Shown in pieces: positions 22,227-32,490 of a stretch of 32,490 bases of DNA (position 1 is the stretch's first letter; each line of letters starts with the position of its first letter). The notes beneath the pieces were generated by a model. That model saw nothing but the letters and a program-made list of their open reading frames with translations. It made no database searches and was not told the origin of the DNA. Source of the DNA: Gardnerella vaginalis (GTDB taxonomy: Bacteria; Actinomycetota; Actinomycetes; Actinomycetales; Bifidobacteriaceae); assembly GCF_001546485.1 (NCBI RefSeq), contig NZ_KQ956843.1, positions 1 to 32,490 on the forward strand, read 5' to 3'. Position numbers and translations under genes: made by a program.

Positions 22227-25200
22227 TCAGCTTTCGTTATTTTTGCGCTTACGACGGCGACCAGCTTTACCCACAGCAAAACCTAATACCGAAAGCGTGG
22301 CAGACCAAAGAGCTGCAGTAGACTCATCACTACCAGTTTTTGCTAACGATGGAGCAGGCTGTGCAGGCTCTTCCTGACGTTCCGCATCTACGTGCAACAA
22401 AGGTTCCGGCATCGCTATTGCAGTTGGGTACTCTGGTTCCGGAGTTGGTGGAACAGGTGCTGGCGGTACCGGAGTTGGCGGTACCGGAGTTGGCGGAACA
22501 GGTTCCGGCGGTACCGGAGTTGGCGGAACCGGCGTTGGAGGCACCGGCTGCGGCTCAGGCGTTGGAGGCACCGGTTCCGGAGTTGGTGGAACAGGTGTTG
22601 GCGGTACCGGAGTTGGAGTTGGTGGCACCGGAGTTGGAGGTACAGGTTCCGGCGGCACCGGAGTTGGCGGCACCGGCTCAGGTTGCGGAGTAGGAGGCAC
22701 AGGCGTTGGAGGCACTGGCTTCTTCTCTTCACGTACCACAGTCATATTCACTGTAATTTCAGCACGCCTACCGTAATTATCTGTAGTACTAAACACAAAT
22801 GGCACTACGCGCGCACTTTCACCTTGCTTCCAATCAGTAATTGTAGGAATACCAGCCATAGTGCATTGGCTTCCAGAGCAAGATGCTGTTATGTTGTTCA
22901 TCACATTTCCAGAACCAGCAGCAAGCTGATTGTTAGGTGCATCATTATTATCGGTAAGCTTAAATTTTGTTTGCGTAAACTCACGCGTAGAACCACCAAA
23001 CGTAAACTTCATAGGCTTCATCTGCTTGAAGTTTGCAGTAATTGTAGTTTCGCGCGTTGGCTTAGGCTTTGGCAACGAAATTTCAGGGTTTATACCAGCA
23101 TTGCGCAAAATCTGCTTCAAAGCTTCCAAACTAGACTTCTTGGAGCTGCGAATTATCTTTGCAATAAATGGCTTATTCGCATCGTCAGCAAGCTCAGCGA
23201 ACACTTCGCGCTGAGCGTCAATAATACCGCTCATATCAACGCTATAATCATGAGGCTTGTCTGGATCAACTCCAGCATTTTTAAGCAATACCTTGAGAGA
23301 TTCAATACTAGACTTATGCGACTTGCGTATAATGCTTGCAACCCAGAACTTACTCTCATGCTCTGCCATGAGCGCCAAAATCTCACGTTCGCCATTAACA
23401 TTTGCAATTTTCAGCAAATTATTCAAGGCTTCTACAGTACTGTGGCGAGAATTGCGAATCAGCTTAGCAACCCATGGCTTATTGTCACCTTCAGCATATC
23501 GCGCTATGCTCTCGCGCTCAAAATCAGTTGCAATAGGATCATTTTTAACTTTTTGTGCTTCTTCCAACAGATGTTGCAATGCAGCCAGAGTCGACGCATG
23601 TGACCTACGAATAACATTCGCAACAAACGTCTTACCGCTCATTATTGCCATACGAGCCAAAGCTTCGCGCTCTTCTTCTGTAGCCTTGCGCTTATCTGCT
23701 GGAGCTGCTGGAATCTCAGTTGTGCTAGAAGTCCAATCCTTAAACACGTAGCCCTTATCTGCAAGCACGTCTGGAACTGGCATATGCACGTCTTTAACAC
23801 CCTTACGCACCCAGTATGTGAACACAGGAGACTTCATTTCTCCGCCACTACCAGCTACATACGTTACCTTGCTATAGTTCTTTTCTACAAACTTGGCTTC
23901 CGCAGTGCCTTTAGCTGGCAAATCGTTATCTGCAATCACATTCGGCAAAACATGCACACGAACTTGAATCTGAGTAGTAATAGTTTTCCGTTCCTTAGTC
24001 TTAGAATCAACTTCGTCTGTAGGTCGCGTAACATCTACAGTTACTGTGGCAGTTCCAGGCTTATATACATAGGTATTATAGTCTTTAACACCTTGCGTAT
24101 TATCAGTATCTTCTGGCTTTTCACCTTGACCATCAACGTGATTAATAGAAACGTTAACGTTAGGATCAGTGTTATGTACAAGCTTATTAAGGTTTGGAAT
24201 CGCATCTCCAACGCCAATAACCGTTTCCGGAATCTTTATATCCGAAATACCAGTTTGCTCAGCAACAAGAATTCGTGGAGTTGCGATATCCCACGCGTGC
24301 TTCCAATTAACATTGGACTCATTACCTTTAGCATCGTACATACGCCACTTTACGAAACCAGAAAGTAGCTTACCGGTGTCGCTTGCAACTTTTTGAGCAA
24401 ACTTAATATTGTCTTTAATATCTTTGCCGTGACGAATATACAGCAGCTTTGGCTTATGTTCACCATTATTCCATCTATGACCAATTTCTGGAAGGAAAAT
24501 GGTTGCAACATATCCGTCTGGAATCTTGTCGTCTTCAGAAGCGTCGATGACGTTTGGCATAAGCTTGTAGCGCGCTACAAAAGTAGTGTTTTCGTCAAAC
24601 TTCATACCAGCAATTTCAGCACTAGAATATAGCTTAATTTGTGGCTGAGTTGGTACAGTAGTAGGCGTTGGCGCCGCAGCAGCAAACAGTGTTACAAAAG
24701 GAACTACTGGTGCAGCAGTATTTGTACCATTCGTAATATTTGGCGTATTGGTCGAATTTGCTACAGGCGTAGTAGCTGTCTGCTTCTCCCAGCCTTGGAA
24801 CTCGTAATGGTATCCTTGCGCATCGTAATCTTTGCCAATAACCTGCGGAGCGCGAACACCACTAGCAGATTGCTTATACGCGTAGTACAATTCGCGTGAA
24901 CCTTGAGCAAATTCACCCTTGCCATTTGGTGACTTACCATCAATCTGAGCATTCTCAAATTTGACTTGAACGTAATATTTTGGATCAAGAACTTTATTAC
25001 GTTCAGCATTAGCACCAGTTTGCGCTTCAGGATGTTTACTATCTTCCTTCGCCAAGCTGCTTGGATACATCAACTGATAAAGCACCTTAAGGCGAGCAAC
25101 GCGCTTATACTTTTTAGGTTCTTCACCGTCCTTGTAATTGACTGTAATCTTTAGCGGCACAGTGTACAAAGAAGGCTTAGAAAGCATCTTCTTCTCAAAG

Positions 25201-28200
25201 TCTTCTGGCTTCTTACCTTTAGGCAAATCGTATTCGATTGTTACATCCTTTATATCGCCCTTAGTTTCTGCCTCTGCCTTCAAAGCAGCAAGATTTGTCA
25301 AATACTCGTCTAACTTTGGAAGCGTGTCACGCTTATCTTGCACAGCAACCAAGTAATCAGTCTGCACATCTGGCTCTGTCCAATCCTTTTGATCTGCCAC
25401 GAACTCTTGGAATGATTCATTGACTTTCCAGCCGTCTTTCCATTCATCGTCAGTTTTAGCAACATTTTTAATTTCAACAAGTTTCTTACCGTCATTAAGC
25501 ATGCTGCTTCGATTCCAAGTGCCAGTAGCATTGGTTAGGCTTGCTTTAAGCTTCTCCAAAGCATTAGTAGGGTCGCTAGAACTGTAAGGAATTCTTGAAA
25601 TATCAGTGCCCTTCTTTACATAGAACACCTTAGGACCACTTGTGCCATCCTTCCACAATCTACCCGGAGCAGGCTTAAAGATTGCAACTACAGCATCCTT
25701 AGGAACTTCACCACCGTCAGACGAATTGGAGAAGTAGTCAATCTTCTTGTAAACAGCGTGGTAAGTTACACCGTTTTGCAAATTCGCATCCGTGTAGCGG
25801 TCGCTTGAATTTATATCAAACTTCTGCTCTGGATTCGGATTCGCAGCAGTCGGCTTTACAACCTTAGTTGTCCAGCCCTTAAACACATAGTGGTAATTAT
25901 TTTCACTGTGATCCTCACCGAAGGCTTGCGGCACGCGGATTCTAACATCCTTACCTTTGTAAACGTAAGCAGTTAGCGTAGTTGTTCCGCCAGTAGAAGG
26001 AGTAGTGCCAGTCGTATCGTGACCAATAATAGTGCCTTCATCGTTACTACCAGTAAAGGTAATAGGCGCATATTCGGTAGCGTGCTTACTGCCGTAGTCG
26101 CTAGTCTTAAACTTTTCCCAATCGCTTTCGTACACCAAATCTGGCAGCACGCGGTACAGTACTTCAGCTTTAGCAGTGTTGCCGTTAAGAGCTACTTGCA
26201 CTTTAATCTTGTGCAAGCCTGGAGTGCTGTCGAATGTTGCACCATCAGCAAATGAGAACGTAGCACCCTCTGGATACTCAGTAGCATTGGTTATGAGCTT
26301 CTTAGCAGACTCGCCACTTTCAGTACTAATCTTCTCAAGTGGCGTAAGCACTTGCGGAGCTGCAGCAACAGGAGCTTTTAGCTTGAAGTTAGCAGTGTAA
26401 ATTACTTCAGGGCTGTTCTGCTCTTCGGAGCGAATCGGCAAGCGATCTACACCGGTAGCATACTCAAGCTTCGTAGAGCCAGAACCATACGAACCGATTT
26501 GCGAAGTCCAGCCAGCAAACTCAAATCCAGGCTTCGCTTTCACTGTTGGAAGCGGCATCTGGTATGCCTTCGTGCCCTTAATCGCATCGTACACAAGAGC
26601 AGAGCCGTCAGCTACATTGTTTCCTTGCCAGTCAACAACGCTGCCCATAGAGCCTTGACCATCGGCCACTTTGAACACGTAGCGCGTGTAGTGATCCGGG
26701 CGAGCTTGAGCATCGTTCTTGCGCTTAAGCACGCGAACGTCTTTATATCTGAAGGTAATTTCAGGAATATTATTAACATCCTGCTTGCCATCTTCGTCAG
26801 TTTTATAAGTAAAACTATCCCGCGTAGTTTCCGGCATAAAGCCTTCAATCGGCTTGTAGAACGCTACGTCGTACTTTCGATTTACAGAGCTGACTTCGCT
26901 TTCTGGAAGAAGCTCATTGCCGTTTTGATCAATATACTTTACCTTATACTTGCGCGTATTGTACGTTTGGTAAATAAACTCGCCAGTATTCTGATCCTCG
27001 TCCTTCGAGGCTTCAAAGCTCGTGAAATGCTTATCTGGGAAGTGCGTTTCGTCACTGTAGACTGCTTCCGCATTGTAGCGCAAATGCTCGCGCAAGCCGG
27101 AAACCGTTTGAGTAGAAACGTGATCCACCATCGCGGCTTTGGCTGATTTATCAGTAGCATTCTTATAGTCAATAAACGTGTACCCAGGCTTTAAGAATAT
27201 GTGCTTAAAAGTACCGTTGTAGCGAGTATCCTCAACCCACACTGCATTAAGCGTTATGTCTTCTACTACTTTGTTGCCAAAAGCGTACGGCAAAGTCGTG
27301 CCGTTCTTTTTAATCTCCCAGCCGTAGAAGTCGTAGCCTTTGCGAGTTGGAACCTTTATATCTTTATTTTCCTTAATAACATAGTAGTGATCGAACTGCT
27401 TTTTCGTAACTACGTTTGTTCCAAATTTCTCTTTGCCTTTTTCGTCGGTTTCAGGCATATTGTAGTTAAGCGTTACAGTGTGCTTAATACCTTCTGGCTT
27501 ACCCCACGCAGCGTAAAGCTTAATGCCGTTGACTGGCACTGTAATATCTTTAGCTTTGCCTTTATCTTTGCTTCCAGTTTTGTTCTTGTCTTCAGTACCT
27601 TCACTATTGTCATTTATCTTGCCATTTATAAGATGAATACCGGCTTGATCAACAGCCCAGCCTTTAAACACGTAGTCTTCTGGCAAATAATCAGGGCGCT
27701 CGATGGAGTACTTAGTACCATTAAGCGTGAAAGTGTACTTGCCGTCGAACTGCTTAGACGTATCGTCAGCATCATCTTTAGTTACAGAAGCATCGTAAGA
27801 CGTATCGTTTCCGTATAGCTCTTTGTCTTCGCCCGTCAAATCTTTTTTGCCGCGCTTGGTCAAGCTATACTCAAACGGCAGTTCTTCTGTAGCAGCGACA
27901 CTGCCGTCCTTTATAGCCTTGCCGTCCGCATTATAAAACTGCACAGCGTACTTCTGGCGGTCGTACCTAAACTCAAGTGGTTTGTTATCATCAAATTCAG
28001 TTGCATCACCAGTATAACCTTCTTGTTCATCTACTGGAACGCCCCTATACTTTCGAAATGCTAAATGATACTTTTTAGCAAAAGCTTTCTGCTCATCCTC
28101 ACTTAAATCATCCCAATCCCCATGATCATGAGATTCGTTATACCACTCTTCCAGCTTACCTTCAAAGTCGTCTGAATCTAACGCCTTACCAACTCTTGCC

Positions 28201-31200
28201 GTATCATAACCACCAGCAGGATTAAAACCAGCAATAGATGGAGCTGGATAATCATAGTCACCGCTAGGAGTATCATCTTTGCTATAAGAATCGGTAGAAA
28301 GCTCATAATCGTCCTCGCTTATCGTATCACCCTTTTTATGTTTTTTAGCAGACGCAATACTTTGCTTCCTAATAATCACCTGTATAGGCTGACTTTGATC
28401 ACTGCTATCAGCAGTAAGCAGACGCTGATTATCTTTTAACTCGTGTGTAACTTGAGGGTTATGCTCAGGGTCATCGCTAATTTTAGGTATTACTTTGTCT
28501 TTTGGATTTTTTTTAAAAGCAGCACGCCAACGAGGGTCAGCAAATTCTTCTTTAGTAAAACGATACGGAGGAGTGTCACGATACTTTACAACCCCTGCAA
28601 ATCCAAGCTGCCACCCTAAAGAGCCTTTTCCCTCTTCACTAAAATATAATTCATTTACATCAGGCCAAATATCAGTAAGCTTTTGACCATAACGAACATT
28701 TACGCGGTAGCCTTTATGGTTAATCTCAGTGCCATGCTCATCCTTGTCTTTACCAACATACTTATCTGAGCAACCGCCACCGCCAGCATAGCAATAAATA
28801 GTTGTTTTGCCGTTTTCATCTTTTCTTTTTATAGCAGCATTGTCACCATTATCTACGCCAGCCGGCTTAGCAAAAATAAGCTCATAAGTATTGCGATCGT
28901 AAACTAAGTTAAGAGTGTTGTTTAAGTCGTTCGCGCAAAGCTTCGCTTTACTACGTTTGCCTAAATCTGGACGACCCGGCACAAAATCATGTTGCTCATT
29001 GTTAAGCTTTTTAGTAAGATCCTTATTCACGTGGAAGTAGCGCGTGAATATGTCCTTGTAAACTCTATTATCCCAATTAGGGGTTTTAGCATCAATAGGA
29101 CCTGTAACATAATTACCGCTAGAATCTTTAAGGTAATTGCTTTCGGCACCAGGATTAGTGGTATCATACCCTTCCAAGTTTGTTACGTGCGTATCGTTCA
29201 TCCAGTTGAACTTTGCAATTAAGCCAGTTTCGTGTTTAGAATCTTTGCCTTGCAACTCTTCTTTAGTTAAGCCAAGCTCTGGGTTCTTTACATAATCAGT
29301 TTCGTCTGCGCCATTAAGCTTACTAGCATCATCAACAACGCCTGCATCATTCATCTTATCAAGCGCAACTTCACTGTCTGTTTGCACATTCTTGCGCTCA
29401 ACAAGACCAACAAAGTCGTAGTTTGCAAGCGAATCCGGATGCTCTTTGTCAACTAAATCCGCCTTTTGCACCCACACGTTCACGCGGTAGCTGGTAGCCT
29501 CGTTAGCCGACCATATCGCGCGGAATTGCACATTGTGATCCGGCATCGTATAATTAGCCGCTTCATTAGTTACAGACCTATTAGAAGCACTTGAGCGATT
29601 AGCACTCTCCCCCGGTTCTACTATCTGCCACCCCATGAACGTATGACCACGATACGTAGGTTCTGGAACCTCAGGCACTTTCTGGCCATAATACACTTTT
29701 TGAGCAGTAACATCCGTGCCGCCAGCAGAATCGTACGTAACTTCATACGCTTTACGGTAGTAGCGAAGGTTCAAAACAAGCTTGTCTTTTTCATCTTCAG
29801 AATCCGAAAGCGGCGAGCTAATAAGATTATGTTCCGGTTCATAGCCTGGAATATACGTTGAAACAGCTGTTACATTCGAGCCAACTGTGCCAGTAATCTC
29901 CGTAACGTGTATAAGTTCTTTAGTTGTTGTAACTTTGCCATCCTTGCCTTTAATTTTATGTTCTACAACAATAGGTTTGCCAATATTAGGCGCTTCATCA
30001 AACTTATCCTTATCCTTAAGATTCTGCACCAAGTGACGCACATAGTACTTAGCTGTTTTAGGAGCGTAGTTGATGTTCAACTCGCCGTAGTACTGAATGC
30101 CGTCTTCTGCTTTTGGCTGAGTAGAGGACGAAGATTGCGGATTTGTAGTTGTTTGAGATGATGAGGTTTGCGGAGCTTGAGCGCCGTTATTGCCTCCAAC
30201 AGCCGACCTTTCCTTTACAGCGTAATCAGTAATCAGCTTCTTGCTTAAACGCAAGTAGCGAATAGCATCCGCATCCGTGCCATCGTCAATAACGAACTTG
30301 CTGTTATTTCCCTCACCTTTTTTAACGTAGTACTGGTAATCACCAGAATGATATACGGACGGGCGGTATCCAGCAGCTTTTGGAAGCTCAATGTATTCGT
30401 ACTTGCCGCCTTTGCCAAGCTTATCGAAGCCGTCTTTGTCAATCGTAAGCTCGTACGGCTGCACAAGCTGCTTATTCGCAGCACCGTTAATCGTGTAGCG
30501 AATTTTCAAATTGTACGTAGCTTTTGGCTTTTTGTCGGTTTGTACCTGTTCGTTGGCAGTTGTCTGGTTATCAGCCGTTGGATGCTGCTCATTCGGCTTA
30601 ATTACCTGGCTATTTGGATCAGTTGCTGCGTTTGTTGCGCCAGCGTTTGGAGTGCCAGCGTTCTGTGTGCCAGTGGCCGGTGTAGAAGTAGGTGAAGACG
30701 TTGAGCCAGGATCTGAAGGCGTAGCGTTTTTATCTTCGCCTGTAGCACCTGTAGTTGCACCTTCTGCACTGCTTTGCGAACCTTGTGCATTGGTTTGCGA
30801 ACCTTGATCAGAGCCTTGCGCAGAGCCTTGTGAACCTTGCCCTTGTGTATTGCCTTGTGCAGTTGTATCTGCACTTGTGCTCGCTGTATTTCCAGCACCA
30901 GCATTAGATCCTGCACTTGCAGGAGTTGCAGGAGAAGACGGTGTAACTGTATTAGCTGCAGGGGTCACAGTAGGAGATGTAGACGCATTATTTGCAGAAG
31001 ATGCAGGTACATTTTCCGCAGAAGGTACACTACTCCCGCTATTATCACCACCGTTATTCTCAGCAGACCTAACCTTACGCACTTTTGGCGTATTTGCAGC
31101 ACTTACTGTATTCGCATTTTCTGCGTGAGTGCTTGAAGGTTGTGCATTTGTATTCTGCTCGCTTGCAGGCTTCGAGCTTTCAGCATTTCCAGACTGCGCG

Positions 31201-32036
31201 TTTGCAGGCTGTGAAGTTTTTGGTTGTGCAGGTTGTTTCACTGCAGAAGTATCAGCTGGATTTACGTCTGTTGGCTGTGGTGTCGTCGTCGATTCTGGCT
31301 TTGCAGTCGGCTTTACATCTGCCGGCTTTGCAGTCGGCGTTGATTCCTTTGCAGCTGGCTGCACAGCCGGCTTCGATTCTGGCTTTACTGCTGGCTGCGC
31401 TTGCTGCACTGGCGCAGGCGCACTTACTGCAGCACCAGCCGAATTTGCAGAAACTGTGGCATCCACTGAACTTTTCTTAATCGCAGCAGAATTCTTAACA
31501 GCACTTCCAACAGAATTCTTACTCACTAATGTCTCATGAGGATGAGAAACAGAAGCTTGCGAAGATGCCCCAAGATTCCCGCCAAAACTATGCCCCTCTG
31601 GAGATTGCTTAACTTCACCAATCTTCTTAGTCTCATCATCCTTAGTGGATTCCTGAGCTTGTTGACTATCCTGAACTTCACGAGCCTTCTCAGCTTCGCG
31701 TTGTTTTTGCAACTCAGCTTCACGGCGAGCAAGTTCTGCCCATTTCTGCGTTTGCACACTCTTGTGAAGCACACTAGCGCCCCAACGCTGCATGTTCAAT
31801 TCATCTGGATCAGGCTTGCCTTTGCCCATATTTTGCGTCATATGAGACGCGTCGATAATATCTTTCTGAGTAGGCTGCAACGCCGAAGCTACAACAGACG
31901 GCAGCATCATCGCTAAAGTCGAAGCAACTGCCACACCTGCAACACCAGTTCGCAAAGCACGAGAACGCTTAACAGCACGAGCTTTGCGAAGTGTTTTCTT
32001 TGGCATCTCACTGTGTAACTCGCTACGATCTACCAT
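22227..32036 (-). CDS. Giant cell-wall-anchored modular adhesin-like protein (InlB-type and Rib-like repeats)
   Basis: The product has 3,269 residues and is predicted to sit on the cell surface. Signal peptide: 1-52 (cleavage after ASA). A short helical segment (about 75-125) leads to a long disordered stalk rich in Ala, Pro, Ser, Thr and Gln (about 150-505). The rest is mostly beta modules. An InlB/Listeria-Bacteroides repeat lies at about 764-842 (YDSAGG...GHTFMGW) and another at 1519-1600. A MucBP-like stretch (KYIDQNGNELLPE) lies near 1700 and a Rib-like module near 1910-1965. A twice-used module (FKPAPGRLWKDG, FLPEIGHRWNNG) lies near 2120 and 2515. Four helical repeats lie at 2789-2980, a last beta domain at about 2990-3100, and a Pro-rich wall segment at 3107 to about 3203. 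The protein ends with sorting signal LAKTG (3231-3235), a membrane helix and a basic tail. Only five Cys were found. The start is firm: AAGGAG lies five bases upstream, with an in-frame stop just before. Adhesion is inferred; the ligand is unknown. Confidence 0.94.
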   Translation of the reverse strand: MVDRSELHSEMPKKTLRKARAVKRSRALRTGVAGVAVASTLAMMLPSVVASALQPTQKDIIDASHMTQNMGKGKPDPDELNMQRWGASVLHKSVQTQKWAELARREAELQKQREAEKAREVQDSQQAQESTKDDETKKIGEVKQSPEGHSFGGNLGASSQASVSHPHETLVSKNSVGSAVKNSAAIKKSSVDATVSANSAGAAVSAPAPVQQAQPAVKPESKPAVQPAAKESTPTAKPADVKPTAKPESTTTPQPTDVNPADTSAVKQPAQPKTSQPANAQSGNAESSKPASEQNTNAQPSSTHAENANTVSAANTPKVRKVRSAENNGGDNSGSSVPSAENVPASSANNASTSPTVTPAANTVTPSSPATPASAGSNAGAGNTASTSADTTAQGNTQGQGSQGSAQGSDQGSQTNAQGSQSSAEGATTGATGEDKNATPSDPGSTSSPTSTPATGTQNAGTPNAGATNAATDPNSQVIKPNEQHPTADNQTTANEQVQTDKKPKATYNLKIRYTINGAANKQLVQPYELTIDKDGFDKLGKGGKYEYIELPKAAGYRPSVYHSGDYQYYVKKGEGNNSKFVIDDGTDADAIRYLRLSKKLITDYAVKERSAVGGNNGAQAPQTSSSQTTTNPQSSSSTQPKAEDGIQYYGELNINYAPKTAKYYVRHLVQNLKDKDKFDEAPNIGKPIVVEHKIKGKDGKVTTTKELIHVTEITGTVGSNVTAVSTYIPGYEPEHNLISSPLSDSEDEKDKLVLNLRYYRKAYEVTYDSAGGTDVTAQKVYYGQKVPEVPEPTYRGHTFMGWQIVEPGESANRSSASNRSVTNEAANYTMPDHNVQFRAIWSANEATSYRVNVWVQKADLVDKEHPDSLANYDFVGLVERKNVQTDSEVALDKMNDAGVVDDASKLNGADETDYVKNPELGLTKEELQGKDSKHETGLIAKFNWMNDTHVTNLEGYDTTNPGAESNYLKDSSGNYVTGPIDAKTPNWDNRVYKDIFTRYFHVNKDLTKKLNNEQHDFVPGRPDLGKRSKAKLCANDLNNTLNLVYDRNTYELIFAKPAGVDNGDNAAIKRKDENGKTTIYCYAGGGGCSDKYVGKDKDEHGTEINHKGYRVNVRYGQKLTDIWPDVNELYFSEEGKGSLGWQLGFAGVVKYRDTPPYRFTKEEFADPRWRAAFKKNPKDKVIPKISDDPEHNPQVTHELKDNQRLLTADSSDQSQPIQVIIRKQSIASAKKHKKGDTISEDDYELSTDSYSKDDTPSGDYDYPAPSIAGFNPAGGYDTARVGKALDSDDFEGKLEEWYNESHDHGDWDDLSEDEQKAFAKKYHLAFRKYRGVPVDEQEGYTGDATEFDDNKPLEFRYDRQKYAVQFYNADGKAIKDGSVAATEELPFEYSLTKRGKKDLTGEDKELYGNDTSYDASVTKDDADDTSKQFDGKYTFTLNGTKYSIERPDYLPEDYVFKGWAVDQAGIHLINGKINDNSEGTEDKNKTGSKDKGKAKDITVPVNGIKLYAAWGKPEGIKHTVTLNYNMPETDEKGKEKFGTNVVTKKQFDHYYVIKENKDIKVPTRKGYDFYGWEIKKNGTTLPYAFGNKVVEDITLNAVWVEDTRYNGTFKHIFLKPGYTFIDYKNATDKSAKAAMVDHVSTQTVSGLREHLRYNAEAVYSDETHFPDKHFTSFEASKDEDQNTGEFIYQTYNTRKYKVKYIDQNGNELLPESEVSSVNRKYDVAFYKPIEGFMPETTRDSFTYKTDEDGKQDVNNIPEITFRYKDVRVLKRKNDAQARPDHYTRYVFKVADGQGSMGSVVDWQGNNVADGSALVYDAIKGTKAYQMPLPTVKAKPGFEFAGWTSQIGSYGSGSTKLEYATGVDRLPIRSEEQNSPEVIYTANFKLKAPVAAAPQVLTPLEKISTESGESAKKLITNATEYPEGATFSFADGATFDSTPGLHKIKVQVALNGNTAKAEVLYRVLPDLVYESDWEKFKTSDYGSKHATEYAPITFTGSNDEGTIIGHDTTGTTPSTGGTTTLTAYVYKGKDVRIRVPQAFGEDHSENNYHYVFKGWTTKVVKPTAANPNPEQKFDINSSDRYTDANLQNGVTYHAVYKKIDYFSNSSDGGEVPKDAVVAIFKPAPGRLWKDGTSGPKVFYVKKGTDISRIPYSSSDPTNALEKLKASLTNATGTWNRSSMLNDGKKLVEIKNVAKTDDEWKDGWKVNESFQEFVADQKDWTEPDVQTDYLVAVQDKRDTLPKLDEYLTNLAALKAEAETKGDIKDVTIEYDLPKGKKPEDFEKKMLSKPSLYTVPLKITVNYKDGEEPKKYKRVARLKVLYQLMYPSSLAKEDSKHPEAQTGANAERNKVLDPKYYVQVKFENAQIDGKSPNGKGEFAQGSRELYYAYKQSASGVRAPQVIGKDYDAQGYHYEFQGWEKQTATTPVANSTNTPNITNGTNTAAPVVPFVTLFAAAAPTPTTVPTQPQIKLYSSAEIAGMKFDENTTFVARYKLMPNVIDASEDDKIPDGYVATIFLPEIGHRWNNGEHKPKLLYIRHGKDIKDNIKFAQKVASDTGKLLSGFVKWRMYDAKGNESNVNWKHAWDIATPRILVAEQTGISDIKIPETVIGVGDAIPNLNKLVHNTDPNVNVSINHVDGQGEKPEDTDNTQGVKDYNTYVYKPGTATVTVDVTRPTDEVDSKTKERKTITTQIQVRVHVLPNVIADNDLPAKGTAEAKFVEKNYSKVTYVAGSGGEMKSPVFTYWVRKGVKDVHMPVPDVLADKGYVFKDWTSSTTEIPAAPADKRKATEEEREALARMAIMSGKTFVANVIRRSHASTLAALQHLLEEAQKVKNDPIATDFERESIARYAEGDNKPWVAKLIRNSRHSTVEALNNLLKIANVNGEREILALMAEHESKFWVASIIRKSHKSSIESLKVLLKNAGVDPDKPHDYSVDMSGIIDAQREVFAELADDANKPFIAKIIRSSKKSSLEALKQILRNAGINPEISLPKPKPTRETTITANFKQMKPMKFTFGGSTREFTQTKFKLTDNNDAPNNQLAAGSGNVMNNITASCSGSQCTMAGIPTITDWKQGESARVVPFVFSTTDNYGRRAEITVNMTVVREEKKPVPPTPVPPTPQPEPVPPTPVPPEPVPPTPVPPTPTPVPPTPVPPTPEPVPPTPEPQPVPPTPVPPTPVPPEPVPPTPVPPTPVPPAPVPPTPEPEYPTAIAMPEPLLHVDAERQEEPAQPAPSLAKTGSDESTAALWSATLSVLGFAVGKAGRRRKRKNNES
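22424..22718. repeat. Pro-rich PVPPTP repeat tract of the giant surface protein
   Basis: About 300 bases of near-identical units such as GGCACCGGAGTTGGCGGT encode alternating PVPPTP, PVPPEP and PTPEP blocks (residues 3107 to about 3203). This is the usual rigid spacer that crosses the wall just before a sortase signal. The DNA is highly repetitive, so length variation and assembly collapse are both likely here. Confidence 0.9.
23097..23672 (-). repeat. Four helical repeats embedded in the giant surface protein
   Basis: Four homologous blocks start at residues 2789, 2840, 2883 and 2942. Shared pattern: (E/Q)RE, then Ala-rich helix, then K-x-[FW]-[VI]-A-x-[IVL]-I-R-x-S-x-x-S-[ST], then x-AL/SL-x-x-[IL]-L-x-x-A. 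They are clearly alpha-helical and related, while all surrounding modules look beta-rich. They resemble leucine-rich-variant (HEAT-like) repeats by eye; this was not confirmed. Confidence 0.85.
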
Positions 32037-32110
32037 CGCTACTCCTTATCTCACAACCTCAGTACAGTGCATATTGCGCATAAATATGCAACTACTCAAT
32101 ATATGCGTAC

Positions 32111-32138
32111 TGTATACAAGCACAGCGCATGTGCTCAA
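32111..32138 (-). promoter_or_regulatory. Candidate promoter of the giant surface protein gene
   Basis: On the minus strand TTGAGC (32133-32138) and TATACA (32111-32116) are separated by 16 bases. A TTG immediately precedes the -10 box, giving an extended -10-like element. It would give a leader of about 70 bases. Another isolated TTGACA lies slightly upstream without a matching -10. Confidence 0.45.
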
Positions 32139-32161
32139 AATAAACACAATGTCAAACAGCT

Positions 32162-32190
32162 CTATGCAATACCACCAACTTATTGCATAG
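32162..32190. promoter_or_regulatory. 10-bp perfect inverted repeat upstream of the adhesin promoter
   Basis: CTATGCAATA and TATTGCATAG are exact complements separated by nine bases. The site lies just upstream of the candidate promoter and about 125 bases from the start codon. The AT-rich stem without a T tail suits a regulator binding site better than a terminator. Confidence 0.55.
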
Positions 32191-32299
32191 GTATGCACAG
32201 ATATGAACCATGCATAAAAACATTGACATACACAGTTTGCGAGCAACCAACAAAACCGCTGTATCTAAGCACCCTTTACATAATACACCAAAACCCATA

Positions 32300-32309
32300 C
32301 CCCCCCCCC
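32300..32309. repeat. Homopolymer of ten C (ten G on the coding strand)
   Basis: A run of exactly ten C is present in the given sequence, in an otherwise AT-rich region, about 265 bases upstream of the giant surface protein start. Runs of this length are prone to slipped-strand errors. An in-frame TAA three codons before the adhesin ATG shows that the tract is not in its coding frame. Confidence 0.95.
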
Positions 32310-32372
32310 AGAGAATTTTGTAAAAAATAATACGTTTTTGCATAAATTTTAAAAAATCCATAAATGCTCTGT

Positions 32373-32440
32373 AAATTACCGGCAAATATAGTCAAAAACC
32401 ACAAAAACAACAACAAACACCGGAAAAATTACCGGCAAAT
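32373..32440. repeat. 15-bp direct repeat pair
   Basis: AAATTACCGGCAAAT occurs at 32373-32387 and 32426-32440, 53 bases apart, with a related ACCGGAAAAA between them. Its role is unknown; it could be a paired protein-binding site or a remnant of an insertion or deletion. Confidence 0.75.
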
Positions 32441-32490
32441 GCGCGACGACCTGTTTGAGCGCTATTCCTCACGGCATAGCCGTTCGGCTG

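Follow-up and report, generated by a model that had tools for sequence, protein, structure and literature searches.

In Neisseria meningitidis, a poly-G tract lies between the -35 and -10 elements of the porA promoter, where variants carry 9-11 G and the length of the run sets the level of the surface protein (PMC3639595). In Bordetella, a C-stretch lies in the promoter region of the fimbrial genes fim2, fim3 and fimX; a single base in the fimX tract goes along with a nearly fourfold difference in transcript, and a relative carries the interrupted allele C6TC3 (PMC1891110). The G-tract of the Bifidobacterium breve pilus is an intragenic switch that joins two reading frames, and one sentence of the same paper notes that promoter spacers of UCC2003 contain additional G-tracts (Penno et al. 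2022, PMC9187656). In Gardnerella, G/C tracts of at least 8 are abundant, about 70% of them lie less than 300 bp upstream of ORFs, proteins with LPXTG or InlB B-repeats are often encoded nearby, and one tract, distinct from the one described here, was found with 9 or 10 residues among colonies (Garcia et al. 2024, PMC11287997). These descriptions, like the comparisons drawn from them below, follow the parts of the papers that were covered.

The window (the whole stretch of DNA that was analysed) is the entire contig C18, 32,490 bp in length, of a 1.6-Mb draft genome of Gardnerella vaginalis. A sequence-only reading had described in it a pure run of ten C on the upstream side of a 3,269-residue wall-anchored protein, and both were recovered: the run is exactly C10 on the plus strand and so reads G10 in the direction of the adhesin gene, and the protein is encoded by a real ORF whose ATG is 263 nt from the end of the tract (Table 1). 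The Listeria-Bacteroides repeats of the protein come from Pfam (E 8e-17), the only one of its features to do so, and the signal peptide, the Pro-rich region and the sorting signal were called by eye; on these predicted features it is a sortase-type protein. Relatives with 51-70% identity in the best segment occur in seven named records, six of them from Gardnerella (vaginalis, swidsinskii and piotii) and one from Bifidobacteriaceae bacterium NR021, and downstream of the adhesin the next large co-oriented ORF encodes a peptide chain release factor with PCRF/RF-1 domains. There is no second C/G run of at least 8 in the window. The G10 tract is unlikely to have arisen by chance, since under a first-order model 0.0017 runs of at least ten C would be expected in the window, and 100 dinucleotide shuffles of the window gave a mean of 0.02 matches, none of them reaching the three overlapping matches observed. 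One mark of a phase-variable contingency locus that works by slipped-strand mispairing is an uninterrupted mononucleotide run, about 8 or longer and above chance, and the tract has it; the suggestion that a wall-anchored protein is preceded by a homopolymer of the switch type is supported.

Table 1. Features of the adhesin locus, in window coordinates
Feature	Position	Strand	Basis and remarks
G10 tract on the adhesin sense strand (C10 on +)	32300..32309	-	read from sequence; G9-G11 in orthologous leaders
Candidate -35, TTTACA	32319..32324	-	sequence and layout score; 5/6 to TTGACA; 9 nt lie between it and the tract, giving a 19-nt spacer with G10
Candidate -10a, TATGGG	32294..32299	-	TA after tract in 10/10 leaders; adjoins tract, weak, 3/6 to TATAAT
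Candidate -10b, TATTAT	32280..32285	-	alignment; begins 14 nt past tract, which would then be at -35
Conserved proximal block TGTTTATTTT	32137..32146	-	alignment; candidate second promoter or regulator site
Rival upstream promoter, TTTACA-18-TAAAAT	32346..32375	-	promoter scan; its transcript would carry the tract in the leader
Presumed ribosome binding site, AAGGAG, 5' of adhesin ATG	32042..32047	-	sequence
3,269-aa surface protein	22227..32036	-	signal-peptide-like N-terminus, Listeria-Bacteroides repeats, Pro-rich region, terminal LAKTG signal

That the tract is an error of sequencing or assembly is hardly credible. It is true that 9 of the 16 separate C/G sites of at least 8 in the window's genome (G000) adjoin N scaffold gaps (contigs C28, C32, C36, C38, C42, C48, C52 and C53), and that N runs occur at the tract in two of the adhesin orthologs, but the leader tract is also seen in several other assemblies, one of them a single contig, and only its exact length is in doubt, not the tract itself. 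On the basis of the same 9 of 16 tracts, assemblies seem to be broken by G/C tracts, either through hard reads or through mixed lengths. Eight of the nine were listed twice because the gap falls within the tract; the pairs about 109 bp apart in this genome, considered as a dispersed two-tract element, are single tracts interrupted by 100-N scaffold gaps, and the element was rejected. The contig of the window itself ends 181 bp upstream of the tract, and about 50 bases at its terminus (32437-32490) have 80-92% identical copies at several places elsewhere in the genome; this dispersed repeat probably broke the assembly.

The tract cannot frameshift the adhesin, as had been stated, for an in-frame TAA (32048-32046) stands upstream of the ATG with three codons between them. 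Since the adhesin frame is closed from the tract to the start in all ten leaders examined, frameshifting of the adhesin is excluded, and an intragenic G-tract switch of the B. breve pilus type, in which a frame would join tract and adhesin, was rejected on the same ten leaders. Bifidobacterium and Gardnerella belong to the same bacterial family. The Bifidobacterium pilus genes had been brought forward as a precedent, which is not apt: their switch is an intragenic frameshift (PMC9187656) and the adhesin has no such joining of frames, so that the B. breve pilus is the wrong model for this tract. A short upstream ORF reading through the tract had also been proposed, and the 77-codon ORF in question does exist (32152-32385, minus strand). 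That the tract switches this ORF, and that its translation in turn controls the adhesin, is nevertheless very improbable. In favour of it, the leader of the closest relative (L096) retains a partly similar open frame of 118 aa through its interrupted tract, as judged by eye; but this similarity is what is expected from DNA that is 77% identical, the two frames differ in length and in their ends, and by eye none of the eight remaining leaders has a counterpart. Over the ten leaders, the longest ORF that spans the tract varies from 23 to 183 aa, some of these ORFs crossing N, and the upstream-ORF option is not supported.

To compare the same site in orthologs, adhesin residues 481-2900 were used as query against 112 genomes of the genus (GTDB) with a cut-off of E <= 1e-60. 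The adhesin is present in 12 of them, all of 1.5-1.8 Mb, and the leader in the window was compared with one from each of the 11 other genomes. A pure tract of G9-G11 is found in 9 of the 12, namely G10 in the window, G060, G109, G110, G009 and G014, G11 in G030 and G090, and G9 in G075. The tract of G060 is immediately preceded by 10 N, G043 has G8 followed by an N gap of 830 bases, G045 carries an interrupted tract, GGGGGTGGGGG (G5TG5), at the aligned position, and there is no tract in the leader of G111. In all ten tract-bearing leaders, whether the tract is pure or interrupted, TA follows immediately on its 3' side, and TAT in nine of them. The leaders fall into two subfamilies that were aligned separately; aligned pairs are 47% to 93% identical, those of different lineages often only about 47-77%, and the distance from tract to start ranges from 55 to 278 nt. 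Thus, the tract and its TA are retained while much else differs. Between L091 and L093, which are 91% identical over 285 nt, the tract is G9 in one and G10 in the other, and L089 and L094 (93% identical) have the same tract length. The length at the orthologous site therefore differs between related genomes (G9, G10, G11 and G5TG5), a comparison between species, each represented by one genome.

These data bear on the view that the tract is a slippery relic of little effect and that the main promoter of the adhesin is proximal, near TGTTTATTTT, about 100-110 nt before the ATG, which we regard as unlikely. The block is strongly conserved, with bases 1-9 identical in 7/7 leaders of the adhesin subfamily and base 10 in 6/7, and it may be a second promoter or a regulator site. 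Moreover, the switch must be dispensable in places, because G111 has no tract and that of G045 is interrupted. However, a neutral slippery run should decay, whereas pure tracts are retained in 9 of the 12 genomes and each is followed by TA; and in L092 and L095 only 55 nt separate tract and start, so that a further promoter would have little space.

The candidate elements around the tract (Table 1) allow two layouts. A porA-type layout, in which the tract would lie between -35 and -10 in a spacer of 16-19 nt, is present in the window but weak, TTTACA and TATGGG being separated by 19 nt. In the alternative geometry, TATTAT would serve as the -10 and the tract would take the place of the -35. 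This would resemble promoters of the fim type, in which the tract lies at or upstream of the -35 with a good -10 downstream, and in which it sets the distance between an activator site and RNA polymerase. In the window, L087 and L096, conservation of the hexamer after the tract is limited to TA, but GGTGTATTAT, which contains TATTAT, is identical in the three, with TATTAT 14 nt downstream of the tract. Therefore, the choice lies between a spacer layout with a weak -10 and a TATTAT -10 with the tract at -35, and both candidate layouts put the tract within the predicted core promoter.

The spacer layout was scored with a matrix trained on non-adhesin tracts, in seven adhesin leaders (L087, L095, L096 and two without a clean tract were left out). 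The window scores 5.53, with TTACAA, one base on, chosen by the matrix and a spacer of 18; this is below the training-site median of 9.2 and is reached by 3.0% of shuffles. The corresponding shares of shuffles are 0.2% for L093, 0.3% for L094, 0.8% for L089, 1.8% for L091, 4.4% for L090 and 17.9% for L092, values that are not independent between related leader pairs and to which TA contributes much. The idea that all adhesin orthologs have a fixed -35 ahead of the tract was rejected, as in L092 no suitably spaced hexamer scores well (0.77); its TTGAAA is 24 nt off by an eye count.

Another possibility, which we consider still less probable than the relic, is that the tract is transcribed, RNA starting at the upstream promoter TTTACA-18-TAAAAT and the G run acting in the 5' leader by structure, stability or pausing. 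This promoter has 10 of 12 matches to the consensus, but a plain promoter scan performs near chance, with 2 sites in the region against 1.1 expected, and the most similar leader, L096, has TAGGAT at the aligned -10. Furthermore, no Rfam family reached the gathering score in the adhesin leader, and a transcribed tract leaves the TA beside it unexplained.

Whether TA accompanies such tracts more widely can be seen from the 12 adhesin-bearing genomes, in which 212 sites of at least G8 were listed, 2 at G060 contig ends being left out. By their flanks they represent 205 distinct tracts, of which 25 touch N and in which a gap-split tract is counted twice. By a simple ORF rule, 99 precede a gene whose sense strand carries the G and 40 a gene whose sense strand carries the C, 42 lie in a same-strand ORF, 9 in an opposite ORF, and 15 fit none of these classes. 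Among the clean upstream-G tracts (n=85), TA is next in 65 and TAT in 56, while 14 of the 36 clean tracts within same-strand ORFs are followed by TA; column counts also place a TTGA-like stretch some 14-11 nt ahead of the tract, and 52% have T at +6. When all tracts with readable flanks were taken together (176 of 205, those with N or short flanks being excluded), TA adjoins 105, compared with 13 for the other strand and 37 for flanks read backward, so that the backward control for TA itself is not low. With the additional demand for a -35-like hexamer (at least 4/6 to TTGACA, 5-12 nt before the tract), 64 of the 176 remain, against 11 with backward-read flanks and 3 on the other strand, and in 49 of the 64 the spacer is 17-19 nt (19 in 27 tracts, 18 in 13 and 17 in 9).

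To limit redundancy from paralogous and orthologous tracts, which are numerous, the adhesin and tracts with similar flanks were removed. In the remaining set TA follows 19 of 33 tracts (mean of 3.3 and largest value of 11 in 2,000 shuffles), and a -35 at 7-9 nt precedes 12 of 33 (4.7 on average and at most 13 in shuffles). The -35 match is on average best at 8 nt (2.36, equalled by 6 of the 2,000 shuffles), with that at 1 nt nearly as high (2.33). For representatives of the same-strand-ORF class the figures are 7/22 for TA and 3/22 for the -35. On these counts and controls, the evidence for the -10 is strong and that for the -35 is moderate. The usual layout, TTGAnn, 7-9 nt, G9-11 and TATnnT, has the geometry of a porA-type promoter-spacer switch: in many tracts the run makes up the 3' portion of the -35/-10 spacer and adjoins the -10. 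The pattern TTGA N9-15 G8 TA was matched 58 times in the 12 Gardnerella genomes; of the other 100 genomes, 17 contain it, with 20 matches between them. The reversed pattern has 3 matches (1 and 2, respectively). This strict pattern misses the tract of the window, whose genome has a single match elsewhere and many tracts running into gaps; among the matches listed, the sole adhesin tract is that of G014, with a 21-nt spacer. The upstream class with C on the sense strand (40 tracts, 18 representatives) showed no clear promoter layout of its own, and several of its members are, by eye, G-on-sense promoters that were given the wrong neighbour gene.

Ten hand-chosen proteins downstream of tracts were scanned with Pfam, giving one pilin, three Rib-type proteins (the match of L107 being below the Pfam cut-off), one subtilase and five without a match. 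The sequence TTGACTTTTnnnAAC precedes the run in 26 distinct tracts, and the run is followed by TATGTT or TATCTT in 25 of them and by N in one. At L104, L208, L201, L264 and similar loci there are paralogous secreted-looking proteins (MxNKKAIAAFAAGATLL...) with near-identical tract promoters, several per genome; the L104 protein, the only one of its kind scanned, has no Pfam match. At L169, L191, L244 and similar loci, G tracts within ORFs are followed by TATTCGTTTC and a common start of the seeming mature protein, and these are probably a separate class of frameshift switches. In addition, on contig C1 of G109, 23 of the 24 G tracts are on the plus strand in the first 0.9 Mb and on the minus strand beyond, as if their G were held on one replication strand.

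Considering the retained TA, the two layouts and the genus-wide pattern together, we give a probability of about 0.6 to the reading that the G10 tract lies in the core promoter of the adhesin and that slippage alters its spacing and tunes transcription. By slipped-strand mispairing during replication, G residues of the tract would be added or removed, each change would bring the -10 closer to the upstream promoter element or move it farther away, and adhesin transcription would go up or down in sub-populations. For this tract we infer promoter activity, length change within a clone and expression that follows length. Of the four routes that had been left open (promoter spacing, a regulator site, leader RNA structure and a short upstream ORF), promoter spacing best fits the layouts around the tract. 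More tentatively, and at slightly less than even odds, there may be a genus-wide set of promoter-spacer switches of one design before surface genes (pilin, Rib-type, subtilase and the TTGACTTTTnnnAAC-G-TATnTT paralogs), with the adhesin as a two-promoter member. If so, the tract promoter of the adhesin would modulate expression and a constant proximal promoter would set its floor, and since each tract promoter would be tuned independently by slippage, one clone could display many surface states.

Gardnerella surface proteins are relevant to biofilm and to bacterial vaginosis. The layout turns the statement that tracts lie upstream of genes into a testable rule, by which spacer length should predict high or low expression, and the surface state could therefore be read from single-colony or metagenome DNA. 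That surface genes of Gardnerella are preceded by variable tracts is already published (PMC11287997); in the main-text parts of that paper that were covered there is no analysis of promoter layout, and the word 'promoter' occurs only in a reference title. No account of a Gardnerella promoter-spacer layout was found among titles and abstract openings, a range that mostly excludes subscription papers, and as far as could be seen the genus-wide promoter geometry goes beyond the published account.

In comparison with the known systems, the tracts of Garcia et al. are from the same genus and, like that of the adhesin, are G/C tracts of at least 8 upstream of surface genes (PMC11287997). The B. breve pilus shares with the adhesin a G tract and a sortase-dependent surface structure (PMC9187656). 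With porA the likeness extends to a poly-G run of 9-11 G in a promoter spacer and to a surface protein (PMC3639595), although the bacterium and the protein are unrelated, and the effect of length is proven for porA and presumed for the adhesin, whose tract-adjoining -10 is weak. The fim promoters differ in their conserved fim box, the adhesin locus having no known activator site, and in a tract described as C, which at the adhesin is G on the sense strand; they are alike in having a C/G tract in the promoter region, with the interrupted C6TC3 there and G5TG5 in a Gardnerella ortholog. Judged by these likenesses, porA of Neisseria and the fim genes of Bordetella appear to be closer precedents than the pili of B. 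breve, and the adhesin tract is likely to be a porA-like or fim-like core-promoter switch.
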